A stretch of 64,000 bases of DNA, from positions 23,001 through 87,000 of the forward strand of contig JAJGQC010000326.1 of NCBI GenBank assembly GCA_021014325.1. The letters are read 5' to 3'. The notes under the pieces are model-generated. The model was not told where the DNA came from. It made no database searches and saw nothing but the letters and a program-made list of their open reading frames with translations. Below, piece after piece: positions 22,355 through 52,877 of the stretch. The translations under genes were made by a program, and so were the position numbers. This stretch comes from Plazaster borealis. Its lineage: Eukaryota > Echinodermata > Asteroidea > Forcipulatida > Labidiasteridae. Position 1 is the first letter of the stretch, and every line of letters begins with the position of its first letter.

Positions 22355-22896
22355 GACTTATCAGCAAAAGTTACATGACAAATCATGACAGTATTGAACC
22401 ATTTATCTTTCATGTAAAGTGAGCATCTAAGGCTTGTCAAACCAAGTACAATTTGCCCATCATTGACTTGGATCAACATTATTACTTGATTCACTGTTTG
22501 GTTGAGTCTTGGTTTAGTGATTCCTTTGCTCAGAATTATAGTGCAAAGAGTGCTTTACTTTTACCATGGTAAAAAATCTCAGAAAACACAATGTGATTGA
22601 TATAGTGCCAGATTGTTGTGCAAGTTTAGTTTATTGACCCCATTCACCTAACGTCATCACCACAAGATTATCTTGGTTGGGCCATTTTGGGAGTCAGTTT
22701 CCCTCTGTGTTGTACTGTGAAATGCTCATTTTAGGCGTGTACACACTCACCATATCTCCACCTGCTATTTGACTCCCAAAATGGCAAACCATGGGCATCC
22801 AGTAGAAGTGTCTGAGGTCTGTTCAATAGAATGAAAAGCCCAGATTTTCTTTGTTGTTCATCACTGAAATAATAGTTAGTCATGCGTGACAGGTGA
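22355..22896. other. Downstream flank of the FReD/discoidin gene
   Basis: No exon seen. GGCCATTTTGGGAGTCAG near 22681 and GACTCCCAAAATGGC near 22771 form a hairpin like the centre of the repeat at 36.85 kb. Confidence 0.4.
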
Positions 22897-22902
22897 TTTA
22901 TT
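22897..22902 (-). promoter_or_regulatory. Predicted poly(A) signal AATAAA
   Basis: The first AATAAA on the minus strand after the stop codon at 23065, about 163 nt downstream. A second lies at 22630-22635. Which is used is unknown. Confidence 0.5.
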
Positions 22903-23064
22903 GGAGTTAAATGTGTGAACTTATCCAGCCCATAAATTGACTTAATGTAAGGATACTCTATTGGAGGAATAAGTTTTACAAACAAATAACCAAGTGTTCG
23001 TATGAATGTTATCTCAGTGCCAGGACATCAAGGTGTCAATGTATTTTTTATCCAGAAACCTTTT

Positions 23065-23348
23065 TTAGCCACGAGGTGGAGTTTGCCGACGTATTTTGAT
23101 TTCAGTCCTTGCAATACGAGAACCATTCCATTCACTAGCTCTAATGACTCGTTTGTATGGACCCATAACATCACTAGGTTGGATATATTCAGCATTAAGG
23201 TTATTATCTACACCAGGTATACCAGAGCATCTATTAAACCACCAACCTCCTTCACTATTCAGACTTGGACAGTTTGTTTCGTCTTGGTTAAAATCTGTGT
23301 GATGGTGAATGCTGAAGGCTTGATTGTTGGCCGTCTCAAGAATACCAC
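23065..23348 (-). CDS. FReD exon c (C-terminal, P subdomain) with stop
   Basis: 284 nt, entry phase 1, ending in TAA. It encodes GILETANNQAFSIHHHTDF, NQDETNC, GGWWFNRCS, NNLNAEY and ARTEIKIRR. GGWW.N.C, NLN and the closing (M/I)KIR are the final FReD landmarks, and the two cysteines complete the four of the fold. The usual DxDND calcium loop reads HHTDFNQDE here, so calcium binding may be altered. This is inference. Confidence 0.94.
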
Positions 23349-26300
23349 CTGAAAAATAGTACAACAAACAAACCATGAATTCATTTTGACAATAAAACTT
23401 TTTATCTTCAACCACACAAAACTATTGGAAACAAATTGTAGACTGGAACACTGCGCTCAGATCCTGTATTCTTCCTGAGTGCAGTCAGGCTGTATAGTTA
23501 AGGGGGATTTTTGTCCTTCTCTCTCAACATTTCAAGCCACTTCCAGAAATTGTGGAACTAACTCAACTCAAATAAGAGCAGCATTTCCAAATTGGAAATT
23601 CTTTTGTGTATCTGAGGTATTCAGAAGTTAGTTCAAAAATGTGTTAGTTTAAATAACACACTAATTTTGCCACTGGATGTGCTAGTATTAGTGATGCAAG
23701 TGTTGCTCTTAAAGTGTCAACGTATGGCACAATTGATCAAACACTGTAAAGAAATTTCTGTGCACAATTATACTATTCTCAAAGGATTTGTAATACCCAC
23801 TTTTTGAGTGATGACATGAATATTTAAATGGGACTTTAGTCATGATGATCATAATGACTGTCCCCCTTGTGGCTCTACATGGAATTATGAACTCTAACCC
23901 AGTTACAGCATGCGCCTCACATCACAAAGGCTGCTGTTATTACTATATTGTGATGTACTGGCCAGCACACCCACATGCAGTTACTGGGTTAGAGTTCATA
24001 ATTCCATGTAATTCCATGTCACAGGCCTGCTATGATCATGACGACAGTCCCCCTTTAAACAGTGCCTTAATAGTGAGATCAAAACACCAACAATTAGCAA
24101 AAACAAAAACATGGGATAGAATTGTAATCATTCATTTTTATTTAAATGATAAACTTACTTCTGCATCCAATGAGTTCAATGCGCATCGCTGGATATCCCT
24201 CATAAGTGATTGGTCTGATACGGATGAAGCGTGCTCTGATTGGCTGCTCAAATTTGTTAGTAACGGGTGTTGATTGGTCAGTGTTACCACGGAATGTCTG
24301 ATTAAAAAAAACCAAGAAAATCATCATGCAGATAAATGAAAGGCATGCATATTTAGTAAAACTTATCAAACAGTATAACAGGTTGTCAAAGCCTGGTTAA
24401 TAGAGTTCAAACAACTTTGTTATTTACACTCTGATTTAAGCTTTTGAAATCTAAGCAGAGATGTTTCGTTGAAGATATTTTCTAATTCAAGCAAAGTTTT
24501 CTAATTCAAGCAAGGTTTTCGAATGCATTTTTTTTCTTCAAATCCAAACATTGAGGTCATTTATCTCAGTTTGGTTCAATGGTTTCAACTTCAAATAAAG
24601 TGCTTTTCTGAAGCAATTTTTGCAATGGGGTTCACAAATTAGCAGGTGCTCTCTGTTTGCAAAGATTTTGAGGAATAATTCGTGTTCAAGAGTTGGAATT
24701 GTAAATTGAAAACAGCTGGCTTGTATTATTGTAATAAAGAAACCATTTACCTGAGGTTGTCCTGTAGGTGCTCCATGGCCAGTTACATGGTACCAGGTGT
24801 TGTTGTTGAGGCTGTATTCTACTTGGAATGCTGTAACACGCCAAGTGTTGTTATCTATCCCTTGAATTATTACCCCTTCAATAGGAGTCACCACCAGTAA
24901 GTCTACCTTTAGCCATGGAGATTCTGTGTCATTCTGTGATGGACACCATCCACCAATGACATGATTCAAACGTCCATTACTAGGCTGACATGGTTGGTCC
25001 TGGTTGGTACTAGAGGCTGTTATTCTCCAGTCAGGAATGGAATGATCTTCCACTCCAAGGTGTTGCCCACACACCCAATGAACTGTAAATAAACATACGT
25101 ATAGTCATGATTTTGATAACATTTTGTTAAGTTGTGCAAAAATGGCAGTACATTTGGCTTTTCTTTAAAACAACCCAACTCGCCGGCTGATGACTACTCA
25201 AATTGTTTCCGATTTTCTGAGTAATAGAAACCCCTTTTTTTATTGGATCAACTGCTAAATTGTTCAACTCTGTACAATTTTATTTAATGGCTCTTTACAA
25301 TCTTAATAATGGATAGCAATCTCTTGATGTGTTTGGTTTTCCCAAAAAAATGAAATGTGTACAGTCTTAAAATGGTTAATCCACTTATCTATCCCTTCAG
25401 AAAAATAGTTGTAAAACGAAAAAGAAAAATTGCACAGCCACACAGTTTTCAGAATGGGAAAGAGGACTCTTGAGGGTGCTATTGTGACCTGTTTTTGGGG
25501 GGTTACCATTTGCCAAAAAACAAATCAACAATTAATGTGTCCAATCAATTTATTACTAAAATAAATGGTGCATGAAAGGGTTAAACTGCATAGCCCTTAC
25601 CAAAATTAACAATTAATTCCAATTGGATATCCAGTTGGAAAGAATTGGATTGAGTTGGTATTGAGTTGGTGTTAGTTGGTTTATATTGGAATACTGAATT
25701 TCCAATTGGAATCAAATTGGACTCAGTTTGCTTGATTACATTGAATTGGAATTAGTTGGAATTTGTTTCCCAATTGAGACCAATTGGGTCCAGTTGGAAA
25801 AAGTCCAATTGGGTTCAGTTGGAAAACAAATTCAAACTGACTCCAACTGAGTCCAATGGTTTTGTGCCAAAAAACACAACATTGGAAAAATTCCAATTGG
25901 TTCCAATTGGAAAGTTGAATTGGAAATTTTGGTAAGGGAGAGTTACACAATTTTAAGAGTAAAAATTGCTAAACAAAATGATAAAAATGCACCCCTGTCC
26001 TGAATTCTGGTTTTCTTGTGTGTAATTGGGGTTCTTTGAAAGCATTTCTTGATAAGTCCATTGTTTCTATTCTGAATAATAATGCGAGTTAATCATTTCT
26101 TGTTGAAACTCACCTTTACATCCCAGGAGTTCAACACGTATCCATAGAGAGCCATCAGTCTGGTTTAGTATGATGCGAATATAACGAGCTGTGATTGGTG
26201 GATGGAACATGCTGGTAGCTTCAGAGTTTGATGTGGTGTTCTTTCTGATTATCTGTTGCAATACAAATGCAAAAATAATTTAATTTGTTTAAACATAAGT

Positions 26301-29300
26301 ACAGCCTTACTTACTGTAACAGTGTGATCCCATCAGCACTGAAGACTAGCATTGCACTTGTATACAACATTTAACTTTAGACACAGTAAACTCATCAATC
26401 TAGCTCCACCTCTTAATTTATTGACAAATCACAACAGGTGAATGTATTCCAATAATACAGGTCTGACATTATAAAATCCCATTACAAAATGTATAGCTGC
26501 AATGTAGCTGTAGCCATTGGGGCAGCTGCATTGTGTTTGGTGCAGTGATCTGGTAGGATAATCAAAGGGTGCAGATGATTATGCAATTCCATTTGAATGT
26601 TTTTGTTTGTCAGTTTTCATTGTGGGACCAAACGGACTTATGAAACTAGTTCTTTATTGATCAAACCAGTATTTAAAAGGTTTTAGCACAAACTCATAAC
26701 AAGTTTGATTTTATGATGGATACTTTATGTGCAGCAATTAACACATCAGTGTAGGTTAGACATCAAAGTTCTTACCTGTGTTGAATTCATATTATGCCAA
26801 GTGCTCTGGTCATCACTGTACTCCAGTTGGTACTCATGACTCATATCTACACTGGTTCCCTGATCAGATCCCTGCAGCATCATAATTCCCTCTACTGTGA
26901 CTCTAATTTCTAGATCAATCTGTAACCATGGTTTGTTGTCATTAGGTTCAGGGCACCAGCCAATAGTATTACTGTTTGCTGATTGAGTGAGTCGTGCATT
27001 GCTTGGTTGACAGTTACCATCTACCTTCCCATTTGTACTTGATGCTGTGATGCGGTAGTCAGGAATGCTACCATCTCCCATTCCAAGACGTTGCAAACAA
27101 AACCAGTGTTCTATTAAAGATAAATGGAAACTCAATATTAGCATTACTGAATTAAAGTGTCTGATTAATTCTTCACTGTGTGGCTTTTGGAACATAATTT
27201 GTTTTGTTTTGATACACAGTATGCAAATTGGATTATGTAATCCTTGACATCGCAATGTAGTCTGTAAATATTTAAATCAGATGTTAAACTTGTCTGGTAA
27301 AAAGTTTCTGCTTGATAAAAACAAAAGTTTTCTCCAAAAAGGTAAAAGATCTCTTTGGTTTAAAATTCAGACAAAGAGGAAATGAAGGTCCTCCTGGTTT
27401 TTCAAATTATATAAATTTGGTAAAACTTAAAACAATGTATGTTTCTTTTTACTTGTAAAGTAAGTATATTGGTACCTATTGTTTTCAATATGCATTGTCA
27501 TTTATATCAAATAAACTTCTACATGAGTGTTTATTTAATGTTTTAGTTGTGAAGTAAACCCAAGGGTTGTTTATAAGATGACCTTACCATTACATCCAAG
27601 GAGTTCAACACGCATTCCTGGACGACTGCCTACATACCCAGTTGGTATGATGCGGATGTAGCGTGTTCTGATTCCCTCATTGAACATGTTGGTTACTCTG
27701 GTGTACTTGTCACTATTTCCAGGGAATCTCTGTGAAAGAAAAATAACTTTGATGCTCATTGACAACTAATTATCTCAAAGTTAGAATGGTTGGAATACAC
27801 ATTGGTCGTGGGAAGTTCTCCTGTCATATGCTGCTCTACTATTTTGAAAGAAATAATGTTAAGTGAAAACAATCTTTTTTGACTCTCGATGACAACTAGA
27901 ACTAACCATCTCAAAGCTAAAATTGTAGAAAAACACAAGGGTCCTAAGAATTATATACTGCTATTTTCTTTTGGAGAAATCAAGTTATGTCAGTTTGGTA
28001 TACAAAAGCTGCTATAGCTTTTATTTTGCAGTTTCTTTTGTTTTAATTGTATAATTTTGACTTCCTATCTGTAATAAAAGCAATATGGTAAAAATAAACC
28101 AAACACAATATTAATATCATTCTTGTTGATTTGGAAGGAATGGTACCCATGCCATTTCAGTGACTCATTGAAGAAACAATGTAACTGCTAAGGCATTGCT
28201 TCATGTTGTTGATATTTCAATTCATTTATCTGCATGATGATTTTCTGCCATTTATGTATGATGTCATACCTGTGCATTGACCTCAGATGTCCCTCCTATG
28301 TATCCCCAGTCTTGTGCATTGCCACTGTATGCAATCAGGAACTCTGTCACCCAGTAGTCTTTGTAGTAGTCGTAGCCCTGTGTTATAACACCTTGAATCA
28401 GTGCTGGCTGTTGCAAGTCCACCTGGTACCATGCAGTGTCTTTGTCACTCTCTGAGGGACACCAGCCACCTAACACATCTAGCCGTCCTTTAGGGTTCTT
28501 GGGGCAGTGACCTTCATCAGTAGAGGATGCTGTTATACTGTCATCCGGGATGCTACCATCTTCCATTCCAAGACTATGGCCACAGCCTCCATCAACTGAA
28601 GAGATATTAAATAAATACATGTTTCCCATAAATAATCCATAACAGTCTGATTATTTTCATAGTTATGTTTCTTCCTAATGATCTTCCATTCCAAGATAAG
28701 GGCCACAGACTCCATCAACTGAAGAGATATTAAATAATTACAAACATTGTTTCATGTTGCCCATGAATAATCCAAAACACTCTGATTATTTTCATAGTTA
28801 TGGTGGGTTTTTTAATGATCTTTTCATTAATGTTTGATTTTATACTGTATGTGAAGAGAAGTGTCATGACACAAAGAATCATGTTTTGATATTTCCCCCA
28901 GTGTCTGGAGGAAATTCATAGTATGATTATTTTCATAGATATGTTTTTCAGAATTATGTTTTAATTAAAGCCTGGCTTATAATGTATTTGATTATAATAT
29001 TTATGACACAAGGAATCATGTTACATTATTTCCTTTATCTGAAGGAAATTCACATGAAATATAAATAAGGCATTCACTATAAAGGCAATAATACACTGCA
29101 TTTATTTTATTTCATTCATTTTAGTCATGTGACATGTAACTAGTGCACTATAGTTAACTAGTGCACTAGTCCCAAAATTGTTACACCATAGTATAGCAAT
29201 TTTGGGACAAGTAACATTATTGTATGGGGTAATTTTTCCTCATTTATGACCTCCGATGATATTCAATCAAACGACCTTGAATTTGACCCTTTGACTGATG

Positions 29301-32300
29301 CAAAGAATGTAAAGACCCATTTGTTGTTGAAATCCAATGACGTCATGTTTCAAATTTGTTTTTTTACAAGGGTCAGGAATGAACCAACAAATCCCCATAT
29401 AAAAATGCAGACCCCCAAGTAGGTCTAAGTGGCATCATTGGCTGTTCTTTACGTTGACAAATTATGCACTGGAAAGGTATCAAATACAATGGCAATTAAC
29501 GCCATTTTAACGTGAGGTTAGAGACTTGTAATTTTTTCCCCATTCATTATTAGGACTCTATCTATTGAAAAAAGAGTACATAAAAAGGGAAAAATTGACT
29601 TTAGAGCCCCTCTTTAAGATTGATGACATTTCACTGACCAACAGCACTAATGTTAGCTGTGAAGAAATAGTGAATGTTGTTAAATAAACATGGTACAAAC
29701 TTTGCTTTGCATCAGGACAGTTTCACAGCAGAACTTCATTTGGAAACTTGTTTTTCCTTCTGGAGAGCTTACATGTTTAAGATTTTTACATGTTCTAGTG
29801 TTTCCAGAAAAGTGTAAGTTAGGGTTTTGTCTATAAAAATAATGTACAGGAATTCCTAAACTCATATATTAAAACAGGAATGGTGTGTTGACAAACACAA
29901 ATGCCCTGCTGACTTTAATTTTATTCATCTTGAGTTATCACTCAGACAACATTTCTTTTGTTTTTGCCATAATGACCTTAATATTCAACTGAGGGGGTCC
30001 AAAAACAATAGGCTTCTGGGAGATCCCAAGACCAATCGCCACACCAAGTTTGAAGTTGATATGCCAAGTCCTTCTTGAGTTATTGCTCGGACATTTCTTT
30101 TGTTTTTGCCATAATGGCCTTAATATTTAACTTAGGGGATCCAAAAACAATAGGCTTCTGGGGGATCCCAAGACCAATTTCCACACCAAGTTTGAAGTTG
30201 ATATGCCAAGTCATACTTGAGTTATCGCTCTGACATTTTTTTTTTTTGTTGCTATAATGACCTTTACATTTGACCTAAAGGTTCTGCAAACAACAGGCTT
30301 CTGAGGGATCCCAAGACCAATCCCCACACCACGTTTGGAGTTCATATGCCTAGTCCTTCTTGAGTTATCGCTTTGACAATGATTGCAAACACACGCACAC
30401 ACACTCCCGTTTGTAAATCCCGCTTACCGAGGACTTCTCTTTAGTTCTCCCATTGTTTGGACATAGTTTTTTTTAGCGACGTCCCCATCGGGTTTGTACA
30501 CGAACACGAAGCGAGGACGTCCTCGCTCTGTCAAACACTCGGATCCTTTTGTTAAAGTCCTCGGTTTGAATGGATAGACACGCTCATGCACACATGTTTG
30601 TAAATTCCTGTAAATCGAGGCCTCCCCCTTCTTCTCCCATTGTTGTGACTTAATTTTGTTTAGTGACATCCCAGTTGGTTTTGTACATGAAAGTGAAGCG
30701 AGGACATCCTCGCTCTGTCAAACAACTAGATCCCTTTTGCTAAAGTCCTTGGTTTCAACGGGTAGACAAGCTCGCACACATGCACGGATCAACAAGGGAA
30801 ACATGGCCCTTCGGCTTTGCCTGGCCAGACATTAGAGAAACAGGACATCCATCCACAAAAACCTCCATCCACTCATGACAGATAAGTAACCTTGTTGTAT
30901 TTGTAAGTGCACCATTCTACACAGTTGCTTGATATTCAGTATTGGGCCTTATTAGACACTGGTGTATATTGTCATCATGTTGTGATAGGGAGAGACATTG
31001 CTGGAGTGTTAACATTATGCTATTCATTGTCTGCTGTCCGAGGATTGTACATGAATGAAATCTCAATCATTTTTCAGATTGCTGCATGATGTCATCAGTT
31101 ATATGTGGATTTATTAGACTTCACAATAAACCCTTTAAATACCAGTTTACTCTGGATATCAGATGGCTTTGTAGAATTTCTACACTCTACCATTGACATG
31201 TGTACATGTATAGAACATGGAAACATAAACACAGTTGATTATGGTAAGAAAGTATAATCAGTCTTAACATGGCTGTAATTTTGATACTTTGAAGAGGTGG
31301 CTTAGTCAAGTGTTAAACTGAGAAGGTCATAATTTCAACACATAAACCACAGTGGAGTTTGTCTTGAGCATATACAACCTAACAAAGGTTGAATGTGAAA
31401 ACATAAATTCCTTCCACAGGACCATCAAGTTCACGAGCGATTACTCAACCAAAGATACCCACTTTCTGGATGTCAAAGTTCTTAAGACGAATGATGGCTT
31501 AACCACAGATCTCTTTGTTAAACCCATAGATAAGTATCAATACCTACATTCAACCAACTGTCACCCCCGACACTGCAAAACTGGCATAGCCTATATAGTC
31601 AGGCCCTCAGACTTCATCGAATATGTTTTAATGATTCTGATTTTATCCACCACTCACAGGAACTTAAGAAACACCTTGTTTCCATGGATCATTAGCCCCC
31701 TAGCAGTTCATCGAGCGATCCACAATGTCAAGGCTTGCTCTATGGAGTCGGTACTTTCCAAAGGACACAAGCAACAACAGCGTTTCAAGGGGAAAGTTCC
31801 TTTTGTTGTTACTTTCCACCCCTCACTTCCTCCCATTCCTAAAATAACCAGTTCTAACCATCATATTCTTCACACATTAGATCGACTTCAACGTGCTGTA
31901 CAGGAAGAACCCATCGTTGCCTACAGATGCCCATCCAGTCTCAGGGATCTCATTGTCCGGGCAGAAGTCCCCCCCATTAATGATAATGTTAATCCCCCTT
32001 TACCACGGGGATTTTTTAAGTGTTCCAACACTTCCAAATGCATCGTCTGTAGACAACACATCAGGGAATCGGACTCCTCCCTCTTCCCACCTTTGATCTT
32101 GTCCTTTGCGTTTCCAATTTCTTGTGGTCAAACAAGCCCCCTCCAACCCCCCCCCCTCTGTCTCCCTATTCATTGTTTACCCCTTGCCTTGTCTGTTTGC
32201 TCTCTGCCTCTATTCATGTATTTCCACTTGACTGCTTTTGTTACGCTTACATACCTGTTCATGTGTGTAGTCTTGTCATTTAGCCTTCAAGAAAAACGTC

Positions 32301-35300
32301 AGGCCATTAACTATTTTTTGCAAAGGTTGAATGTGCAAGTGATGTGCACAGAGGGTAATGAGTTCCATACAAATTAGGCATATAAAGCAGGCTGAGGTCA
32401 TGTTTATCCACCAAGTGATCAGCTTGCATTGCAACCACAGAAGAACATCAACTATTTGGTCTAGTAATCATTTATGGGAAAAGTGTAATGAAGAACAGAA
32501 TGTTATTTGAATTCAGTTTGTCATGTCTCAATTAAATGAATGAAATTCTGTATCATAAACCTGCTACTTGAGAGCATACTGTGTGCTTAGCACCAGACAT
32601 TACTAAGTCATATCACTTACCTCTGCAGCCAAGGAGCTCAATACGTAGGGATGGGTAGCCATTCCAGGCTGTTGGTCTGATGCGGATGTACCGTGCTTGA
32701 ATAGGCTGCTGGAATATATTGGTAACTGGGGTGTCTCTATCAGTGTTGCCATTGAATGTCTGTCAATGAAATCAGAGGTGGACATGGTAGGAAATAAATT
32801 AATTAGTAATAATTAATACTTAGATCATGAATAATGACTGTACAGCTTCATTGAAGTGTCTTTGTTTATAAGGAATACATGTAGGGATGGAGGGTGTCTT
32901 TGCTGAATACTCTTACCTGTGGAGTAGAGTTCCCATTCACATACAGCCATGCATTATTATCAATGCTGTATTGTACCTGGTAATGTGTCACATACCAATC
33001 ATAGTATGGACGGCCCTGTGTGATGACACCCTCAATCTGCACAGGCTCTGTACCCATATCTACTTGAAGCCATGAATCACTGTATTGCCCATTAGCTGGC
33101 AACCAATACTGGTTCAGGTTCAGTCGTGCATTACTTGGCTGAGTCCATGAACCCCACTGACTAGATGCTGTGATTCTAACATCAGGAATACTCCTGTCTT
33201 CCATTCCAAGTGCATGTCTACAATATCTACCAACTGAAACCAAACAAAACCCAATAGCCTTTAATTACATGAGGAACTATAGGTGATGAATTTTGTTTTT
33301 TCAAAACAACATTTAAAGAGGAAAGGAGATTTTGTGATAGATACCATCCTCATGTGAGTGGGGAACAAATTACAAGATTCTAACCTCACATTAAAATGGT
33401 GTAAATTGATATTGTATTCCATAACTTTCCATAAAAGTGCACAATTTGTCAACATCCAAAACATCTGAGGACATCTTTCTGAGAAGAATGGGTCTCTACA
33501 TTTTTGTACAGGGATGTTTTGGCTAAAAATTTGAAACATGACGTCATTGGATTTCAAAAACTAATGGGTCTTTACATTCCAAGAGGAAATTTTTCGTAAA
33601 AAAAAATATTCAAAATCAAGGCCGTTTTTATTACATGTTATCGAAAGTCAGAAATGAACCAAAACGTCCCCGTAGAGACTGATTTTTCTCAGAATGATGT
33701 CATCAAATGTTTTGGATGTTGACAAATTGTGCAGTGAAAAGTTATCAAATACAATGGCAATTTACACCATTTTATTGTGAGGTTAGAGACTTTTAATTTT
33801 TTCCCCACTCACATGAGGACTCTATCTATTGGAAAATAAGTACATCACAAAAATTGATTTGGTCATTTATTACCTTCCTATTTAAGCCAAAAGCCAACTG
33901 ATGTGGTTTAAATTGTAGTGTTTCACATTAAATTGATATCAAATAATAAACCACAAGGGAAACTGACTGGGTACATTTCATATTAAATTGAGTCACTGTT
34001 AGAAATGTCTCACATAAAGAATCAAAACATTCAATGAATATGGAAACATCGGTAGTATTTCATGAAAATATTTTTCAAACTTATTCAGCAAAAGGTATTA
34101 GATGGAGATTGTAGTCCTCCTAGTCATGATTAATACAAGCAATTGTAGACATACCAGTTGGTTGTACACTCAAGTGCTCCATGGACAGGGTGTAGTTATC
34201 AGGTCCGATGTGAAAGGGTGTCTCCATCAAATGACCAGTGCTATTTTTTTCATTGGTGAGGTCAAGACGGATTGTCCAATTCCCATCAGTATCAGTCAGC
34301 TTATGTAAAATCTCATTGCCAAGCCAAAACTCCCCATCCATTGACCCAAAGCCAACCTTGTAATCTACCCAACTGCGGTTAAAATTGACGGATCCATCAT
34401 AGCGCCGCTGGACCACCTAGAAGAAAAAAAAGATAGATCGTATAATCTAATAGTGTGTAGTGAAGATCAAATTTGAAAATTAAGTTTCAGATTTATTTTC
34501 ATTATATTATCGTCGCGCCAGTGCAACAAGGTCGTAACTCCACTCGTTTGTTTTGCATGAATTACTTTTTAAGATTCGGTAACGTTTTAAACAAAACTGG
34601 TTGTTTAAGTCAAGTAAACTTGTACATATGAACTATGAAGACATTTATAATAAAAACATTAAAAGTAACATTTACACTTAAATACCTCTCAAACAAGTTT
34701 TATGCCTTAATTACCATGAAAATTGTAGATACATCCTTGTTGCACAGACACTGCATCGCGTGCAATCAATGGGTAAAACGTCATATTTCTCAGTGCAACA
34801 AGGTCGTATGTCTCAGATAAGACTTATTTGCTCGAAACACGTTAATGAATTATGTCGACATTTATTGATAATGACCTGTATCTTTTTAGTTACTTTTTGG
34901 ACAAAATTGAAACTTTTACAGTTAATCAGACAAAAATAAAGCAAATTTTGTATATCATAACACCAAAAATTTGACATACGACCTTGTTGCACTGATGTGA
35001 AATTTGTATGGTTAATTTTTCAAAACTCCGACAAGATAAAACAGTTGTTGTAGACTTCAGTATGAGTTATCAGGTAAATTATGCTTAAATTATTGATATT
35101 TTGGTAAAATGTTAAGCATCAGAACATTATGTAGGTGTTATGATTTAATGGAGGTAATGTGGATTGTTAATCTTCAGTACTTTTATTTCCAACAGAGATG
35201 TTTTCATCATACATGTTTAGATGCAAATCAATGTTTAAAATACTATATGACATACTATCTACTTAGGGAGTGCTCTCAATTATGAACATTTTCACGAGTG

Positions 35301-38300
35301 TCCAAACCATACGCTAAAGAAGAGGGTCTGCGGCTCGGTACGCTTCATCAAATAAAATAAAACATTGATTTTGTATTTATATCATGCCAGTAAGCCATGG
35401 CTAAGCTCACAGTGGGATTGTTGATTTGTACAAATCATTGCTGATTAGAATTAAGTGCCAGCCACCCTAACTTCAAGCAACCCTAACTCCAAGCCATCAT
35501 ATCACATGTCCTACAGCTAAATTCCCGAGCATGATTCAACAGCAGAACTAAACTTGAAATCAAGTGGTTATAATTGTGTGGGCTGCAAGGCCGTACTTTC
35601 ACTCCCTCATCAGCCGGGCCAATTACATGGTTTTGTTTACTGCAGCATTCAGTGCTTACAACAACAATTCTCCACATTTGAGAGTAGCTCTGAATTTCTG
35701 TGCCAGTTTTGTGAAATCCTTGGTTATGCAAGTGTAGAAGCAAAAATTCCAAGCTAAACTGAGGCATGATGAATTGGGCCCAGATCTAGCCCAAATCGCC
35801 TGGCCCATCGCACACTCAAGATTAGTGTTTGTATCTGGCCAACAGTGCTATGACGTTGGACCCAGTTGTATGGGGACTGGCCAGTTGCAGCTTCGCTTGT
35901 CCGCATCACCTTAACCAAAGGTGCTGGGAGGGGCTGATGTATCATTATGTTCTTTGGTCCATTATCCATGACCTAATAACCTGCAATCACCTCTTCCTGT
36001 TTACAAAAGACTAAACCTATATTTTGATGTTTGTAGATCAGTGGTGTAAATCAAGTGGAAGTTTTGCTCTTAATTTCCTCGCTGGTCTTGATGCCATCAT
36101 TTATTAATAATTTACCACAATGTGTTGTATGCACTTCATAAATGGGGAGTTCACTCATGCTTCCTTCAAGGTCTGAGTCTTAGCATAACACTGCGTTATA
36201 GCATGTTATGAGTGGTGTGCATACTGCACTGATCACCAATACTGGTACCACCAATCCCAATCCCAGCATGCATAACTTGGCTTCACCTGCATGACGTTCT
36301 TTAAGAAAAAGGGTTCGCCCCTAACAAGTAAAAGCCACTCTTGGTAAGGGGCTACAAGAAGAAAATTATTAAATGTGAAAACAACTCAGGAGAGCTGGAG
36401 GTAGGAATTGACATTCCTCTTAAAACAGTCTAGATTGTAGAGTTCCAAAGAGATGCACTACGTGGAATAAAACTGTTGGAATGGCTCTTTGTACTACATC
36501 TCAGCAAAGCAAGAGTGTATGGGTGATGAGAAGAAGCAGAAAGTCTGGTTTCCAACTCAAACATTCTGATAGGAGGAATTAGGTCGGACACACTGGTGTA
36601 GAAAAGACAGAGGCTGGCTACAGACCTACGACGGGAAAGAGGTTGTAACGTTGATCCCAACACTTCACCAACAAGGTTAAAGGGACACGTTGCCTTGGAT
36701 TGGACAAGTTGGTCAAAAAAAAGCGTTTGTAACCGTTTGTTATAAAAATGCATATGGTTAGAAAGACGTTATAAAAGTAGAATACAATGATCCACACAAA
36801 CATGCCTCGAAATTGCGTGGTTTTCCTTTTCTTTTGCGAACTAACATGGTCAGCCATTTTGTGGAGTCAAATATTTGACTCCACAAAATGGCCGACCGAA
36901 AAACTGCTACCTCAGGCAAAGTCAATGAACCCATATGAATAGATGGAAATGTATCATCTCTTGATGAGCGAGACAGAGACAGAAGTTTAGTTTTCTTTGC
37001 ATTGAAGGTTTCTAGCCAATCATTCCCCCACTTTAGCAGATTCTTTAGCAGTGTTCTTCGGGCAGATCATTAATGTAAACAAGAAAGATAGTGGGACCAA
37101 GTACTGGGCCTGGTAGAACAGGTAGGAGAAGAATGACCCTTAAGGACAACCTTCAACTTGCGGTTGAAAAGGAAAGCAGAGATTATAGATAACATTCTGC
37201 CTGACACACCATATGACTGAAGTTTGTTGAGCAGGCCAGTATGCCATACTTTGTCGAAGGCCTTGGAGATGTCCAATGCTACAACACGAGCCTCACCCCT
37301 GCGGTCTAAAGCCCTACCTAAACGATCGGTAATTAGAGAAAGCAGGTCACCGGTTGAGCGGGAATGGCGAAGTTGAACTTGTACAACCTCATCAGCCCAT
37401 CCCATCAATCCCTGCAGACATAACTTGGCTGCACCTGCATGACGTACATCCTGAAAAAGAACTTATACAACCTCAGCCCATTCCATCAATCTCAGCATGC
37501 ATAACTTGGCTTCACTTGCATGAAGTACATCCTGAACAAGAACTTGTACCTCATCAGCCCATCCCATCAACCGAAGCATGCATAATTTGGCTGCACCTGC
37601 ATGACGTACATCCTTAACAAGAACTTTTACAACCTCATCAGCCCATTACAGCAGTCTTGGATGAGACTTGTGGAGCTGAGCGAAGGCTGCTGCCTGATAC
37701 TGGTTGGATGGATAAGAACACTAGAGGGACAGGCGTATGACCCCCCCCCCCCCACCCCCAAACGTCAGAGGTCGCTGCTGTCTGCCACACTCACCATTTT
37801 TGGAGTCAAGTTGCAAGTAAAAGTATGGTAAGTGTGTAAACGCCGAGTGGACAAAATTTAGCGCTACAGTGTTTCCGGGTACATTGTTTCCAAAAATGGG
37901 CAACCAAGATTATTTTGATGATGGCATTTGGTGAATTGGGTCAAAATACAGCCCCTGCACCACAATATGTACATTGACCTGATGTTAAGTCTAGAGCCTT
38001 ATGAGATGGTCATTCAGTCAATGGTGGATCAATGATGGAGTCCCATGAAATGGGGCACAAGTATTGTGAAATAATTCAACATTTTCTGATGTACACTTTT
38101 AGGTGGTAGGGAGGGGCAGACCTGAAAAGTGTATGGTTTTAACGCTCGTGAATATGTTGTAAATATATGTCTGAATGTCTATGATTCTGAATGAATAATA
38201 GAATCCTTAAGGAGCGGGGTATAATTTGATGTACTTACAATCCAGCCTGTATGCATCGTCATATCACACAACACCTTTATTCCTTCATCATTCTGGTAGG

Positions 38301-39832
38301 GATAGATAGTGTAGATACCATCCTCTCTGTGACCAGCATCCAACAAAGCCTGACAGTCTGTCAATTTATCTGATGGATTAAACATAACAAATCATTTTAT
38401 CATTGTTTATTAACATTATTCATGTTAATACTATTGTGTGACTTTGTATTTGAGACCTAATGCAATAAACGCTAATGGAAGTGTTAGGATGTGACCCATT
38501 ATCTGTTGTCCACAATTAAACGTTGGTTTTTTATTCCTTAAACAGGGCAAGGAAAGTCAATGATTATCTACTGTACCTAGAAATCCTGAGAAACTTTCCT
38601 TGTGTTAATTTATTTGGAAGAAGATGAAATTACCTTTCAAATGAATTACATTACTAGAAGATTACTAGAAGATTTTGTTTATGTTAGTAGTGAACTTTTC
38701 TTATGTGGAAAATCACCACATACCTTTGGAAATATAAAACCCAATGCCTCTATGGCATACAGATATCTTCTCTACCTAAAACTCTCAGTTAATTCTTTCA
38801 AGTCATGGTATTCCCTGTGTCAAAACACTTGTCACTACATGTGAAAGCACGCTCAGTTTCCATTACACCATGCATGACGTACATGAAATACAATGTGTAC
38901 ACACACAAAACATTAAGGTGTTGCGTCACACATATGAGTGATGTGTTGGTGATAGGGCTTCCGACATTAGAATGTTTTTAAGGAAAATAACATCATATTT
39001 TCTACGGAGAACTTGTGCTAGTTGTAGACAATCAAAATCTTGAGTGTGCTTGATCTATGGCTGTTTCGTGCATTTCAACAACATGTGTCAAACTGTCTTA
39101 TTTCAAGGGCAATGGAGGGGGATTTGAGGAGTAAACATTGTTTCTCCAAAGTGCAATGCCCTGGGGATGTCAAAGTCCTTGATACCCAAAACTAGACCAT
39201 CCCACATATGGGATGGGGGGGGGGTGTCAGTTTCTACAGTTTTGTAGTGGGGTTTTTTATGGGATGGAGAAAACCAGCTGCCCATAGACTTCGTATTGGG
39301 GTGAAATCAGACCACACTGCCCACACATGATCCAACCCTCCTATAAAGTGGAATGATACGAGCCATTTGTTTGTTGTCTTATCTTTAAGATATCATATCG
39401 TCATCTTGTTAACACTCTGAGCCAGCTATGCGGTTTCCAGCACCCCCACCCCACACCACCAATTAAGGCTGCAAGTAATAATGTTGGTCTCCTGGAGGAT
39501 CGTGACCTTGGTTGACCACAACCAACTGAGGGTTAAAATTTGAGGTTTTTTTCATTTTCAAAATGCAACAATTTAACTTAATTTATAGGGGACAAGAACA
39601 AATAATGAGAAACACAAGACAGTCTATTGTTTCAGGATGATTGTCTAGTGCTCCCAGTACCTAGTGTCATTAAAAGTAGCTTTTTGCTCACCTTGTTTAG
39701 TAGACTGACATCGATTCCGTTTTGGTACCTGTTTCATGACTTGTGTTACCCAGTGTTCACCAGGAGTAAATCCGTCAGGTAGTGGTCCGAAGTGATGAAC
39801 TATCATCTTACTCTCAGTCAATTCAAGGATAA
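23065..39832 (-). CDS. Secreted-type FReD protein split by four discoidin (F5/8C) domains; 12 exons, 5' end missing
   Basis: Twelve exons with GT-AG borders join in one frame: 39832-39692, 38357-38239, 34416-34155, 33233-32917, 32759-32621, 28595-28270, 27729-27588, 27110-26776, 26252-26114, 25082-24751, 24297-24159 and 23348-23065. They give 2675 nt, an incomplete first codon plus 890 residues and a stop. The order is an unknown 47-residue segment, the FReD A and B parts, four discoidin domains, then the FReD P part. FReDs and discoidins are extracellular ligand-binding folds (sugars, acetyl groups, phospholipid, collagen), so a lectin-like recognition or matrix role is inferred. No signal peptide exon was found. 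It must lie upstream, perhaps beyond the repeat-filled region. Reading the locus as two genes is less likely, because the FReD halves complement each other exactly in phase and content. Confidence 0.85.
24159..24297 (-). CDS. Discoidin domain 4, second exon
   Basis: 139 nt, phases 0 to 1. It encodes TFRGNTDQSTPVTNKFEQPI, ARFIRIRPITYEG and MRIELIGCR. It is the only module that ends in A rather than G before the donor (GTAAGT). The joining codon to the FReD C-terminal exon becomes AGT (Ser) rather than GGT (Gly). Confidence 0.93.
24298..24750 (-). other. Intron within discoidin domain 4
   Basis: Phase-0 intron at the same position as in the other three modules. Beyond AT-rich text, TTTTCTAATTCAAGCAA is repeated. 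Confidence 0.7.
24751..25082 (-). CDS. Discoidin domain 4, first exon
   Basis: 332 nt, phases 1 to 0. It opens WVCGQHLGVEDHSIPDWRIT and contains GGWCPSQNDTESPWLKVDLL, IEGVIIQGIDNN and VEYSLNNNTWYHV. Confidence 0.93.
25594..25938. mobile_element. Foldback MITE rich in CCAATTGG
   Basis: CCCTTACCAAAATT on the left is mirrored by AATTTTGGTAAGGG on the right. The ~345-bp interior consists of variants of TTCCAATTGGAA and CAGTTGG. It lies in the intron between discoidins 4 and 3. Confidence 0.8.
26114..26252 (-). CDS. Discoidin domain 3, second exon
   Basis: 139 nt, phases 0 to 1. It encodes IIRKNTTSNSEATSMFHPPI, TARYIRIILNQTDG and IRVELLGCK, with donor GTGAGT. The N-terminal part is more diverged than in the other modules (no F.GN.D). 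Confidence 0.92.
26776..27110 (-). CDS. Discoidin domain 3, first exon
   Basis: 335 nt, phases 1 to 0. It opens HWFCLQRLGMGDGSIPDYRI and contains IGWCPEPNDNKPWLQIDLEI, VEGIMMLQG and HEYQLEYSDD. The acceptor TTTAATAG is weaker than in the other modules. Confidence 0.92.
27588..27729 (-). CDS. Discoidin domain 2, second exon
   Basis: 142 nt, phases 0 to 1, one codon longer than its counterparts. It encodes RFPGNSDKYTRVTNMFNEGI, RTRYIRIIPTGYVG and MRVELLGCN, with donor GTAAGG. Confidence 0.93.
28270..28595 (-). CDS. Discoidin domain 2, first exon
   Basis: 326 nt, phases 1 to 0. It opens VDGGCGHSLGMEDGSIPD and contains GGWCPSESDKDTAWYQVDL, IQGVITQGYDYY and VTEFLIAYS. Its first 39 nt plus the preceding intron are duplicated just upstream (28680-28818). 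Confidence 0.93.
28680..28818 (-). pseudogene. Tandem duplicate of the discoidin 2 acceptor and exon start
   Basis: Segment 28557-28679 (intron plus first 39 nt of the exon) is repeated at 28680-28818 with substitutions and a 3' length change. The copy keeps the acceptor CTCTTCAG and encodes VDGVCGPYLGMED, then runs into intron sequence, so it is a truncated exon. It could serve as a decoy acceptor. Confidence 0.8.
29290..29617. mobile_element. Right part of TTAA MITE family AGAGGGGCTCTA
   Basis: It ends TAGAGCCCCTCTTTAA and shares GTGAGGTTAGAGACTT, TTTTTTCCCCA and GACTCTATCTATTG with the copies at 33313 and 49474. The left terminus is absent. Confidence 0.65.
29929..30378. repeat. ~143 bp tandem repeat, three copies
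   Basis: Each copy includes CTTGAGTTATCGCT, TTTTTGCCATAATGACC, AACAATAGGCTTCTGGG and AAGTTTGAAGTTGATATGCC. Copies start at about 29929, 30073 and 30216, with a partial start at 30359. It lies in the intron between discoidins 1 and 2. Confidence 0.85.
30425..30785. repeat. ~178 bp direct duplication with GCGAGGACGTCCTCGC palindrome
   Basis: Two copies share GGTTTTGTACATGAAAG-type text, GAAGCGAGGACGTCCTCGCT, CTGTCAAAC and TAGACACGCTC. The first copy has a perfect 16-bp palindrome, GCGAGGACGTCCTCGC. The second has one change. Confidence 0.75.
31352..32377 (+). mobile_element. Penelope-like element fragment (RT end and linker)
   Basis: A 341-residue frame matches the end of a Penelope-like reverse transcriptase (FHRTIKFTSDYS, THFLDVKVL, TTDLFVKPIDKYQYLHSTNC, HPRHCKTGIAY). 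It continues through the linker VPFVVTFHPSLPPIPKI, NHHILHTLDRL, AYRCPSSLRDLIVRAEVPP and FFKCSNTSKCIVCRQHI. The stretch IVRPSDFIEYVLMILI looks frameshifted relative to the family, so the open frame is partly accidental. From about 32095 the match ends in unrelated hydrophobic residues, and no GIY-YIG endonuclease is seen. It lies opposite in strand to the host gene, in an intron. Confidence 0.8.
32621..32759 (-). CDS. Discoidin domain 1, second exon
   Basis: 139 nt, phases 0 to 1. It encodes TFNGNTDRDTPVTNIFQQPI, ARYIRIRPTAWNG and LRIELLGC. The closing cysteine pairs by family rule with the one at the domain start. It lacks an ATG-led frame of useful size and is recognised by content and splice sites. 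It ends AGA-G before GTAAGT. Confidence 0.93.
32917..33233 (-). CDS. Discoidin domain 1, first exon
   Basis: 317 nt, phases 1 to 0. The domain opens with RYCRHALGMEDRSIPDVRIT and shows SWLQVDMG, IEGVITQG and VTHYQVQYSIDN. C..(A/S)LGMED.SIPD.RITASS is the classic F5/8 type C start. The GTAAGA donor after CCACAG is shared in position with the other three modules. Confidence 0.93.
33313..33885. mobile_element. Palindromic TTAA MITE, family AGAGGGGCTCTA
   Basis: Both ends show TTAA next to AGAGG-like and CCTAT-like termini. The arms GTGAGTGGGGAACAAATTAC and TTTTTTCCCCACTCACATGA are inverted over more than 100 bp. It sits in the intron just upstream of discoidin 1. Confidence 0.75.
34155..34416 (-). 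CDS. FReD exon b (B subdomain)
   Basis: 262 nt, entry phase 0, exit phase 1 (donor GTATGT). It encodes VVQRRYDGSVNFNRSWVDY, KVGFGSMDGEFWLGNE and, near the end, YTLSMEHLSVQPT. The QRR.DGS, W.DY..GFG and GEFWLGNE motifs are diagnostic of FReDs. Four N-glycosylation sequons are visible (NRS, NWT, NST, NYT). The exon stops at the loop after the YTL strand, exactly where the discoidin modules begin. An ordinary FReD would continue here to the calcium loop. Confidence 0.95.
34519..34994. mobile_element. TIR element CAGTGCAACAAGGTCGTA
   Basis: CAGTGCAACAAGGTCGTA at 34519 is inverted at 34977-34994, and a third, direct copy lies at 34791. The ~476-bp unit is noncoding. No clear target duplication is visible. 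Confidence 0.65.
35010..36420. other. Intron between FReD exons a and b, unassigned part
   Basis: The 67-residue plus-strand frame at 35554 has three Cys pairs (NCVGC, YCSIQC, LCQFC), but there is no family match. GCATGCATAACTTGGCTTCA at about 36267 belongs to the repeat expanded at 37.4 kb. Confidence 0.4.
36430..37408 (-). mobile_element. Jockey-like LINE fragment, interrupted by a MITE
   Basis: The 5' portion (37408-37070) encodes RT motifs RHSRSTGDLLSLITDRLGRA, VVALDISKAFDKVWH and LKSYGV-like text (LQSYGVSGRML), then shifts frame. The 3' portion (36676-36430) encodes the usual C-terminus: LVGEVLGSTLQPLSRRRSVA, SLCLFY, TRLSASSHHPY and SASLWNS. Between them is a 36677-36897 insertion. The YxDD region is lost. 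It lies in the host gene's intron in the same orientation. Confidence 0.8.
36677..36897. mobile_element. Half of a TTAA foldback MITE (AGGGACACGTTGCC)
   Basis: TTAAAGGGACACGTTGCC is the left end, and GGTCAGCCATTTTGTGGAGT with its inverse forms the central palindrome at about 36850-36897. The right arm is missing. It interrupts the LINE above. Confidence 0.7.
37385..37650. repeat. ~80 bp tandem repeat, about 3.3 copies
   Basis: Units contain CAACCTCATCAGCCCATCCC, GCATGCATAACTTGGCTGCA and CCTGCATGACGTACATCC, then TGAACAAGAACTTGTA. The 87-residue frame across it is a repeat product. Confidence 0.8.
38239..38357 (-). CDS. FReD exon a (N-terminal, A subdomain)
   Basis: 119 nt, entry phase 1, exit phase 0, with a consensus donor GTAAGT. 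It encodes DCQALLDAGHREDGIYTIYP followed by YQNDEGIKVLCDM and TGWI. The two cysteines (DCQ and LCDM), GIYTIYP and GW are the opening landmarks of a fibrinogen C-terminal domain. Joining to the next exon gives GWIVVQRRYDGS, the expected family sequence. Confidence 0.93.
38358..39691. other. Intron between the first two visible exons
   Basis: No additional exon recognised. CCTTGTGTTAATTTATTTGG and similar AT-rich text dominate. Confidence 0.4.
39692..39832 (-). CDS. Exon 1 of those visible: 47-residue segment of unknown type
   Basis: The acceptor TTTTTCAG and donor GTGAGC bound 141 nt in phases 1-1. The peptide starts ILELTESKMIVHHFGPLPDG and ends VPKRNRCQSTKQ. It has a single cysteine and no recognised domain. 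The final G joins AC of the next exon to make the aspartate before the first FReD cysteine. Because it is phase 1-1 it is skippable. Coding status rests on phase match and splice sites, not on homology. Confidence 0.7.
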
Positions 39833-40985
39833 CTGAAAAATGAGCAATGTCAAGTAATTGCAATGTTGAGACATGAGAACATGCAACATGAGAACATGGA
39901 ATCATTTGAAGTGTTTTCCATTGGTTGGTGTCAATTCTCTTCGAGCAATAAAAATGATTGATGTTTTGTAAACCAGGGTGGTTTGGGGAATTGTTCAAAT
40001 TGTATATTCTTGGCAAGTCCCACACTTATTCAAACAATTTTGGGACCACTTCCGTGCTTATTTGAACAATTTAGGACCACTTCGGTCCTACAAACATTGC
40101 TTTAACGCGTAAAGGAAAAAAAACTTGTGCACTTTAGAGGGTCCCAATATTCAAATAGGCACGGGACTTGCACAGTCTATAACAGATTAGTGTTGTTGAA
40201 TTGTTTTTGTGTTGTTTAACATGTACATATTTCTCTGGAGGATTGAGACAATGTTAGGTGTATTCAAACATGACGTTTTTGCAGCTGAACAGCTGATTTG
40301 CCTTGTTTTTTGGTTTCTGTAATAAAACAATGATTCACCAACTACACAAGTGATTAAAAGACTAATTGTAACAACAAATTGAAGTGAACAAGATACAGAA
40401 AATATTTGTGTATATATGAAAATTATTTGGAATCAAAGACAAAAATTTAAACAACATATCATGAGACTGTTGAAACAATTATAACAGTTGAATAATAATA
40501 ACTAGGTTTTACATTGTGCTTTATCTGGGGGCATCTCAAAACACTTCTTTCATTTGATTTAAAAACAGTTTTTTAAATTTTTTAGATTAAGTGACCCATT
40601 AATATAGCAAACAATTTTGTTTGTCTAATTATGTCACTAAGCAAAAATGTTTGCATAAATGAATGATATAACAAAGGGCACTGAAAGCACTTACAGTAGC
40701 ATTTTTGTTATCTCAAAGTAGCAAGTCTCCTTTTGTGGTTGATTTTCAATTATTTGATTCTATTTCTATAATGAACAGAGTTAAGAAGTTGAGACAAAAA
40801 GCAGCTCCAGGATGAATGGATACAGTTCCAGTCAACAGTCATGATAGTTAATCACATTGCAATGCAAAAGGTCATACAATAAAGGTGCCGAACATGCGCA
40901 GTATGGAAGATTTCGCACAGGATGTTGTTCAATAAATAAAAGGTACTTGGAACAATCAAAGGACAGTTCTCTGTAGAACACAAAG
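39833..40985. other. Upstream flank or intron, no feature seen
   Basis: No exon with a phase-1 donor on the minus strand was found that could precede the 39692-39832 exon. Confidence 0.4.
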
Positions 40986-41088: not shown

Positions 41089-43722
41089 CACAAGGTCAGC
41101 AACAGAACCAGGAAAAACTACTTGATGCTGTGCTTGAGGGCTAAGGGCAGGGCAAAAAGAGTCCAACATTATTGCACAAGGTCAGCCACAGAACCAGGAA
41201 AATCTACTTGATGCTGTGCTTGAGGGCTAAGGGGCAGTGGGACAAGAGAGTCCAACCTCATTGCACAAGGTCAGCAAAAGAACCAGGAAAAACTACTTGA
41301 TGCTGTGCTTGAGGGCTAAGGGGCTAAGGGACAAGAAGAGTCCAACATTATTGCACAAGGTCAGCAACAGAACCAGGAAAAACTACTTGATGCTGTGCTT
41401 GAGGGCTAAGGGGCTAAGGGACAAGAAGAGTCCAACATTATTGCACAAGGTCAGCAACAGAACCAGGAAAATCTACTTGATGCTGTGCTTGAGGGCTAAG
41501 GGGCAGTGGGACAAGAAGAGTCCAACATTATTGCACACAATCAGCAATAGAACCAGGAAAATCTACTTGATGCTGCACTTGAGGGATAAGGGGCTAAGGG
41601 GCAAGAAGAATAAAAAATTATTGCACAAGGTCAGCAATAGAACCAGGAAAAACTACTTGATGCTGTGCTTGAGGGCTAAGGAGCAGTGGGACAAGAGAGT
41701 CCAACCTCATTGCACAAGGTCAGCAACAGAACCAGGAAAAACTACTTGATGCTGTGCTTGAGGGCTAAGGGGCTAAGGGACAAGAAGAGTAATAAATTAT
41801 TGCACAAGGTCAGCAACAGAACCAGGAAAAACTACTTGATGCTGTGCTTGAGGGCTAAGGAGCAGTGGGACAAGAGAGTCCAACCTCATTGCACAAGGTC
41901 AGCAACAGAACCAGGAAAAACTACTTGATGCTGTGCTTGAGGGCTAAGGGGCTAAGGGACAAGAAGAGTCATAAATTATTGCACAAGGTCAGCAACAGAA
42001 CCAGGAAAAACTACTTGATGCTGTGCTTGAGGGCTAAGGGGCTAAGGGGCTAAGGGGCAAGAAGAATCCAACCTCATTGCACAAGGTCAGCAACAGAACC
42101 AGGAAAAACTACTTGATGCTGTGCTTGAGGGATAAGGGGCTAAGGGGCAAGAAGAATCCAACATTATTGCACAAGGTCAGCAACAGAACCAGGAAAAAAT
42201 ACTTGATGCTGTGCTTGAGGGCAAAGGTTCGTGGGACAAGAGAGTCCAACCTCATTGCAAAAGGTCAGCAACAGAACCAGGAAAAACTACTTGATGCTGC
42301 GCTTGAGGGCTAAGGGGCTAAGGGGCAAGAAGAAGAAAAAATTATTGCACAAGGTCAGCAACAGAACCAGGAAAAACTACTTGATGCTGTGCTTGAGGGC
42401 TAAGGAGCAGTGGGACAAGAGAGTCCAACCTCATTGCACAAGGTCAGCAACAGAACCAGGAAAAACTACTTGATGCTGTGCTTGAGGGCTAAGGGGCTAA
42501 GGGACAAGAAGAGTCATAAATTATTGCACAAGGTCAGCAACAGAACCAGGAAAAACTACTTGATGCTGTGCTTGAGGGCTAAGGGGCAGTGGGACAAGAG
42601 AGTCCAACATTATTGCAGAAGGTCAGCAACAGAACCAGTAAAATCTACTTGATGCTGTGCTTGAGGGCTGAGGGGCTAAGGGGCAAGAAGAGTCAAACAT
42701 TATTGCACAAGGTCAGCAACAGAACCAGGAAAAACTACTTGATGCTGTGCTTAAGGGCTAAGGGGCTAAGGGGCTAGAAGAGTCCAACATTATTGCACAA
42801 GGTCAGCAACAGAATCAGGAAAAATTACTTGATGCTGCGCTTGAGGGCTGAGGGGCTAAGGGGCAATAAGAATCCAACATTATTGCACAAGGTCAGCAAT
42901 GGAACCAGGAAAAACTACTTGATGCTGTGCTTGAGGGCTAAGGGGCTAAGGGGCAAGAATAATCCAACATTATTGCACAAGGTCAGCAACGGAACCAGGA
43001 AAAAATACCTGATGCTGCGCTTGAGGGCTAAGGAGCAGTGGGACAAGAGAGTCCAACCTCATTGCACAAGGTCCGCAACAGAACCAGGAAAAAATACTTG
43101 ATGCTGTGCTTGAGGGCTAAGGGGCTAAGGGACAAGAAGAGTCATAAATTATTGCACAAGGTCAGCAACAGAACCAGGAAAAACTACTAGATGCTGTGCT
43201 TGAGAGCTAAGGGGCTAAGTGGCAAGAAGAGTCCAACATTTTTGCACAAGGTCAGCAACAGAACCAGGAAAAACTACTTGATGCTGTGCTTGAGGGCTAA
43301 GGCGCTAAGGGACAAGAAGAGTCATAAATTATTGCACAAGGTCAGCAACAGAACCAGGAAAAACTACTAGATGCTGTGTTTGAGAGCTAAGGGGCTAAGT
43401 GGCAAGAAGAGTCCAACATTATTGCACAAGGTCAGCAACAGAACCAGGAAAAAATACTTGATGCTGTGCTTGAGGGCTAAGGGGCTAAGGGGCAAGAATA
43501 ATCCAACATTATTGCACAAGGTCAGCAACGGAACCAGGAAAAAATACCTGATGCTGCGCTTGAGGGCTAAGGAGCAGTGGGACAAGAGAGTCCAACCTCA
43601 TTGCACAAGGTCAGCAACAGAACCAGGAAAAACTACTTGATGCTGCGCTTGAGGGCTAAGGGGCTAAGGGACAAGTAGAGTCATAAATTATTGCACAAGG
43701 TCAGCAACAGAACCAGGAAAAA
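41089..43722 (+). repeat. 90-bp satellite, first block (~29 units)
   Basis: The unit reads CAAGGTCAGCAACAGAACCA, GGAAAAACTACTTGATGCTG, TGCTTGAGGGCTAAGGGGCT, AAGGGACAAGAAGAGT and a variable CCAACATTATTG or CATAAATTATTG. Units are 89 or 90 bp. An 89-bp variant with GAGCAGTGGGACAAGAGAGT alternates with 90-bp units to make 179-bp higher-order repeats (frames restart at 41686, 41865 and at 42231, 42410, 42589). A period divisible by three yields long frames in any phase without a stop, but the gag phase is closed once per unit by GGCTAA. Confidence 0.95.
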
Positions 43723-46985: not shown

Positions 46986-47019
46986 GGGGCAAGAAGAGTC
47001 CAATATTACTGATCTACAA

Positions 47020-48556: not shown

Positions 48557-48912
48557 TTAAAGGTATCGTACACGTTTGGTAATGACTCAAAACAAATATT
48601 AGCACAAAAACTTACTTGGTAACAAGCAACGGAGAGCTGTTGATAGTATAAAACATTGTAGGAAACGACTCCCTCTGAAGTAACGTAGTTTTTGAGAAAG
48701 AGGTAATTTCTATTAGTTTCTAGTAGTTTTTATTCCTATCTGAAAGCACACAAATTGTACAACAAGGTGTTTTTTCCTACATCATTTTCTTGCAACTTTG
48801 ATGACCAATTGAGCCCAAATTTTCACAGGCTTGTTATTTAGTGCATATGTTGGGATACACCAAGTGAGAACACTGGTCTTTGACAATTACCAAATGTGTT
48901 CAGTGCCTTTAA
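48557..48912 (-). mobile_element. TTAA MITE family AGGCACTG inserted in the array
   Basis: It is inverted relative to the 19.8-kb copy. The left end is TTAAAGGTATCGTACACG and the right end TGTTCAGTGCCTTTAA. Sibling units read GACTTTAATAACTGCC without it, giving an exact empty site. Confidence 0.9.
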
Positions 48913-52640: not shown

Positions 52641-52857
52641 CAAAGATTAACTAACTAAAGCTTTGAATTATCGTAATATGACACCTGATGACGTCACAAT
52701 AACAAAAATGTGTTTTTTCATACTAATAAATTTGATAAGGTACACGATGGTATGTAACTTATCCCAATCCAATGCTTTTTAACGAAAACCCTATTGGAAC
52801 GTACGTATATCCTCTCTCGGTTAGGATTCCAATATCACGGCAGTCTTTGACGCCTAG

Positions 52858-52877
52858 CCGTGATTGCGCAATCACGG
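52858..52877. repeat. Perfect 20-bp palindrome
   Basis: CCGTGATTGCGCAATCACGG, conserved without change at 62827-62846 in element C. Confidence 0.9.

Follow-up and report, generated by a model that had tools for sequence, protein, structure and literature searches.

The window analysed here is a stretch of 64,000 nucleotides from the sea star Plazaster borealis (assembly GCA_021014325.1, contig JAJGQC010000326.1, positions 23,001 to 87,000 of the forward strand), in which a gene for a fibrinogen-related domain (FReD, PF00147) is interrupted by discoidin, or F5/8 type C, domains (PF00754). The gene lies on the minus strand, running from 39832 down to 23065, and comprises twelve exons in the order E0, FReD A, FReD B, the discoidin units D1 to D4 of two exons each, and FReD P. 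Each of the eleven introns begins with GT and ends with AG, and the joined chain forms one open frame of 890 residues with its stop codon in the last exon. The FReD is therefore not one unbroken stretch, as four PF00754 stretches stand between B and P. Four complete F5/8 type C domains in eight exons, on the same strand and in frame, had been proposed in the original prediction, made from the letters of the window alone, and the exon joins together with the Pfam matches confirm them. The exons and the interval that houses the discoidin units are as follows, numbered from the first letter of the window.

39692..39832, minus strand: N-terminal exon E0, ILELTESKMIVHHFGP...CQSTKQ, phase 1 at both ends
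38239..38357, minus strand: FReD exon A, two cysteines, part of the PF00147 match
34155..34416, minus strand: FReD exon B, PF00147 at 65.3 bits alone, phase-1 end in a Gly codon (ACT G, then gtatgt)
23349..34154, minus strand: FReD B/P interval, phase 1, containing all eight discoidin exons
32917..33233, minus strand: D1 first exon, PF00754, sequence match to factor VIII C domains
32621..32759, minus strand: D1 second exon, phase-1 end, phase-0 intron within the unit
28270..28595, minus strand: D2 first exon, discoidin
27588..27729, minus strand: D2 second exon, discoidin
26776..27110, minus strand: D3 first exon, discoidin
26114..26252, minus strand: D3 second exon, discoidin
24751..25082, minus strand: D4 first exon, discoidin
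24159..24297, minus strand: D4 second exon, discoidin, phase-1 end
23065..23348, minus strand: FReD exon P and stop codon, two cysteines, start completing the split codon (GT)

The splice sites were scored roughly against every GT and AG of the minus strand in 23000-40000. All 11 donors stand at or above the 97th percentile and 10 of 11 intron acceptors at or above the 90th, the FReD A acceptor being at the 73rd. A chance frame was also considered and ruled out, because a single frame is kept through eleven junctions.

The divided FReD and its discoidin units

FReDs follow a rule of four cysteines, two in the A part and two in the P part, and the same distribution is present here (A two, B none, P two). 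The whole chain matches PF00147 at 119.2 bits, rising to 125.6 bits (profile positions 5-217 of 221, cut-off 22) when A, B and P are set together, which bears out the proposal that the A/B and P parts are complementary and share the four expected cysteines. P alone reaches 19.6 bits, below the cut-off; its kinship to the FReD is drawn from the joint match together with an identity of 85-91% to the P part of eight Asterias models. In the same comparison A has 76-84% identity, placing P among the best conserved segments, with E0 alike where it is present.

The cut falls after YTLSMEHLSVQPT, at the B/P border and within a Gly codon in phase 1, and a direct join of B to P rebuilds the split codon. 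An insertion in a loop just before the calcium/ligand-pocket half of the domain had been proposed; the position stands, but the naming of that half needs care, as the motif site reads HHTDxNQD. Uncut FReDs carry a DxDND-like calcium motif at this site. The Asterias models P0001 and P0014 read as the window does, other Asterias copies vary, and the nested FReD of Patiria reads DKDHD. The asteriid calcium motif thus looks changed, so the ligand of this FReD may differ.

Some database proteins end just past FReD B, as though the donor had been read through. P0223 and P0224 finish with QPSGM and QPTGL, and in the window 34123-34154 would give PTGMSTIACINHD followed by a stop; such endings are possibly a truncated form or annotation noise. 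P0226, an ENA entry of 187 residues, has a first part which we take to resemble the start of bacterial gyrase A, fused to the B part of an asteriid FReD that ends where the donor is read through, and is likely a chimeric contig.

PF00754 is matched in four stretches of the chain, at 329.5 bits. Each discoidin unit has a cysteine at its start and at its end, forming a terminal cysteine pair, and each is bordered by phase-1 introns on both sides with one internal phase-0 intron, so that all four fit the class 1-1 module rule. Phases agree at all five between-unit junctions, and the end of FReD B and the start of FReD P are also phase 1. As the units and the FReD cut share this phase, gaining or skipping a unit can leave the frame intact. 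Identity to P0001 is 72% for D1, 63% for D2, 83% for D3 and 75% for D4. Within a local-duplication block, the acceptor and the beginning of the first D2 exon (28558-28619) recur 123 nt upstream as a 62-nt copy (92%) at 28681-28742; this copy is a decoy or dead exon start.

The receiving intron and the relatives of the gene

PF00147 has at least 165 matches in this genome, and most of those listed span the whole domain in one open frame. They are clustered, many of them uncut, on contigs C5, C7, C8, C16, C19, C20, C21 and others. At least ten of the matches listed run from profile position 44-45 to 136-158, and eight of ten such loci were analysed. In all eight, matches to A, B and P follow one another in order along a single strand, although in L017 the A match lies ~4 kb away and only part of P is matched. 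Six of the eight have phase 1 in a Gly codon on both sides of the B/P border, with introns of 324-537 nt, while L016 was read at the acceptor side only and L017 at the donor side only. Discoidin queries gave no match to these eight loci at E<=0.001, the four matches at E 0.31-0.95 being noise. In an alignment anchored on NNQAF, the window is cut at the same codon as those introns. Other FReD genes of this genome carry the intron of the entry site without discoidins, a finding beyond the claim of the original prediction, and because this discoidin-free intron sits at the same codon in other loci, an intron existed to receive the units.

A protein search with the whole chain yielded 150 proteins, 120 of which served as the source of the relatives described here. 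Among the matches listed, at least 17 Asterias models are of the nested kind, 16 from A. amurensis and one, P0014, from A. rubens. The FReD-discoidin(n)-FReD order sought in related genomes was found in these 17 of 17 models, each with its discoidins at the FReD B/P site, and in one protein of Patiria miniata. A, B and P are present together in 15 of the Asterias models; P0012 is without the A part and P0013 starts near the end of B. Four units occur in 13 of the 17 and two in the other four, namely D3 and D4 in P0014, P0015 and P0017, and D1 and D4 in P0016. D4 is full only in P0001 and P0014 and shortened in the remaining Asterias models. By these matches the source genome reads as that of a sea star, likely one of the Asteriidae. 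E0 has 84-91% identity to P0002, P0005, P0014, P0015 and P0016, and is missing in P0001 and others with a different N-terminus. The Patiria protein, P0044, carries one discoidin at the same site, where uncut paralogs read GDA-GDSL. P0125 contains the start of the same discoidin insert in a model cut short, and P0123, P0124, P0126 and P0127 run into or start at the same codon, hinting at an intron there. In P0123, 56 residues that are not a discoidin lie between GDAG and GDSL.

Gene number, products and origin of the insert

The twelve exons in all likelihood form one gene, probably encoding one secreted protein in which a complete FReD is predicted around a looped-out string of discoidins. Intact FReDs that could supply each missing half were looked for and not found: the window and its 20 kb flank hold a single set of A, B and P parts, each in one place, with no second copy. 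The contig is 87 kb long and ends where the window ends, with 3 kb at its other end lying outside this search. Five Asterias models gave no match in two 10-kb flanks (E<=0.01) and, within the window but beyond 22500-40000, none under E 0.05, while twelve FReD sequences, nested and uncut, left the flanks empty except for a stray 15-residue match at E 0.1. It is thus very improbable that two genes are present, with a discoidin gene nested on the same strand in an intron of a FReD gene and each having a promoter and ends of its own. In the first exons of D2 and D3 the frame does extend back to an ATG, which before D3 is followed by a hydrophobic stretch readable as a start. However, in the frames of D1 and D4 no ATG precedes the first cysteine of the domain, the matching phases at the five junctions and the single A, B and P set argue for one chain, and single models of relatives join FReD B directly to D1 or D3, and D4 directly to FReD P.

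The main product could instead be an ordinary FReD lectin that skips all eight discoidin exons, leaving the discoidin forms as minor isoforms. The common phase 1 of all unit borders and the FReD cut would permit this, the direct B-P join being open with a full PF00147 match, and P0014 of A. rubens, which has two discoidins, is named an isoform. Nevertheless this appears unlikely, as the discoidins are conserved in protein sequence (63-83% to P0001) and the four-unit form prevails in Asterias (13/17 models). Furthermore, with the 220-residue skip form as query (29 proteins among 51 candidates), the Asterias matches of more than 70% identity, P0222 and P0223, comprise the A/B part only, and the best uncut Asterias match, P0225, has 39%.

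Several observations weigh against a single secreted protein with a complete FReD. A search of the 24 kb upstream, as far as the contig end, with the first exons of the Asterias models gave no signal-peptide exon. The relatives behind the nested order are automatic gene models, and the A. rubens proteins P0222 and P0223 are cut short, the former entering D1 slightly and the latter ending after B without a discoidin. As skipping eight exons leaves an open, full FReD, much of the mRNA could lack discoidins. Structure prediction, proposed as a means of seeing whether the FReD halves fold together, answered this in part. For the one-discoidin Patiria protein, the model has a complete ficolin-like fold across the insert, albeit at a mean predicted local distance difference test (pLDDT) score of 63.3 and with the joined fold favoured because its alignment included uncut FReDs. 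The AlphaFold2 model of the four-unit P0001 (pLDDT 38.1) was unusable and was not used.

The number of entries was addressed with two trees. The FReD tree holds 38 rows; P0130, P0028, the first FReD of P0143, L001, L004 and L005 were left out by the filter, L017 was not assembled and is likewise absent, and P0125 contributes its A/B part only. The ten nested FReDs of asteriids group as a single clade (100/100), the two nested FReDs of Patiria are placed in a clade shared with ten uncut FReDs of Patiria (100/99), and a single clade of all nested FReDs is rejected by the approximately unbiased (AU) test (p 0.0006). For the discoidin tree, 27 proteins were entered, of which P0125 is without a full domain, and short D4 units were filtered by length, giving 76 rows from 26 proteins. 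The D1, D2, D3 and D4 of the window group with their namesakes (100/97, 100/99, 100/100 and 100/97, respectively), and the four-unit array is therefore older than these loci. The discoidin nested in the Patiria FReD falls together with discoidins of Acanthaster proteins that have no FReD match (97/84), and a common origin of the Patiria and Asterias-type inserts is just rejected (AU p 0.048).

As the trees reject a single origin of the nested FReDs, the same intron likely took discoidins twice. The B/P phase-1 intron would then be a reusable docking site, entered independently at least two times in sea stars, in the kin of Asterias and in Patiria, with the discoidins acting as splice-adjustable plug-in cassettes rather than being carried at an end. 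The balance tips only slightly towards this reading, because gene conversion between paralogs could have distorted the FReD tree. It is also burdened by a warning of the FReD tree tool, which noted a long branch at the asteriid nested group that can sway the AU test, and by the best discoidin tree, in which the asteriid nested discoidins are not one clade (D3 adjoins Patiria and Acanthaster), with one clade not rejected (AU p 0.388). A single entry before the Asterias/Patiria split, followed by loss from the uncut Patiria and Acanthaster FReDs or blurred by gene conversion in the FReD tree, is conceivable but rather doubtful. In its favour, the insert position is shared by the two lines, a supported clade of 30 rows (100/96) takes in all sea star discoidins of this type, the rejection in the discoidin tree is barely under 0.05, and the long-branch warning again applies. 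On the other hand, the placement of the Patiria nested FReDs within the uncut Patiria clade, with the AU rejection of an all-nested clade, and the grouping of their discoidin with those of Acanthaster proteins lacking a FReD match speak for repeated entry.

In the mechanism proposed here, discoidin units with phase-1 flanks would have been shuffled into the FReD B/P intron, with four units present before these asteriid loci split and a like event occurring separately in the Patiria line. A unit is predicted to sit in the loop at the B/P border with the FReD fold unbroken, being tolerated there because a discoidin brings its two ends together through the terminal cysteine pair. Exon skipping may alter the number of discoidins and leave the FReD untouched. 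Ficolin-type FReDs bind acetylated sugars, and the F5/8 C domains of factor V/VIII and lactadherin bind membranes; by sequence, the nearest solved chains belong to these types. A FReD with a glycan- or acetyl-group-binding face, joined to membrane- or glycan-binding discoidins, would make a putative body-fluid factor for recognition or agglutination. Through a secreted chain carrying both domains, the recognition of glycans or acetyl groups would be linked to a second surface. In the textbook view, shuffled extracellular modules are added between whole domains; here, the units entered through an intron that lies within a compact recognition fold, an interruption which the FReD is predicted to withstand. 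The gene offers a clear test of the extent to which a fold can be opened and a natural design joining two binding faces in one unit, while representing a new class within a very large FReD repertoire (the at least 165 matches of this genome).

Surrounding sequence and known systems

A 90-bp minisatellite, with long open stretches on the plus strand, occupies 41089-43725 and 45979-46990 of the window (~29 and ~11 copies), starting ~1.3 kb upstream of the first known exon of the gene; one of its open reading frames (ORFs) had no significant stretch against Pfam. Reverse transcriptase fragments are located at 37073-37462 on the minus strand, within the FReD A/B intron (PF00078, above the cut-off), and at 8074-8517 on the plus strand (PF00078, below the cut-off). 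Three arrays, at 51757-52630, 60949-61785 and 62148-62606, are apparently one 130-bp tandem repeat. At ~47550-58897 on the plus strand, several scattered copies of an ORF containing words such as VSQKCTGFPNIDQTDIN and QNSEASLRVILIYLAHV are probably an interspersed repeat.

Among known proteins, ficolins, FIBCD1, MFAP4 and tachylectin-5 share PF00147 with the gene, and its joined FReD parts match MFAP4 (E 4.2e-31), angiopoietin-like and ficolin PDB chains. They differ in that the FReD is unbroken in the aligned solved chains, whereas four discoidins stand between B and P here. Ficolins carry a collagen-like stalk ahead of the FReD; no Pfam match to one was obtained in the exons found, the N-terminus of the gene being incomplete. 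Factor VIII, factor V, neuropilin (b domains) and lactadherin are alike in their sequence match to D1, with PF00754 occurring four times in the chain here. However, their discoidins stand in line with other domains, and in the sea star gene they are nested inside one.

Mollusc fibrinogen-related proteins (FREPs) are similar in combining a FReD with other extracellular domains; one account describes them in these terms, as a diversified germline family (PMC13428168), and another reports their immunoglobulin superfamily (IgSF) domains (PMC7588048). The exons of the window, again with the N-terminus incomplete, gave no Pfam match to an Ig domain. FREP expansion in a sea cucumber is already in print (PMC5638244). 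In the open-licence literature, matched by title and the start of the abstract, no paper on a sea star FReD with discoidins was found among the matches listed, and the terms 'fibrinogen' and 'discoidin' are absent from the main text of a paper on starfish coelomic epithelium (PMC9630195). The lancelet proteins P0028, P0040 and P0041 also house PF00754 and PF00147 in one chain, but their discoidins precede an uncut FReD with GTAGD(S/A)M intact, forming a row rather than a nest. The Asterias models P0001-P0017, automatically named 'uncharacterized protein' or 'coagulation factor VIII-like', belong to the same family as the gene of the window and have the same nested order.
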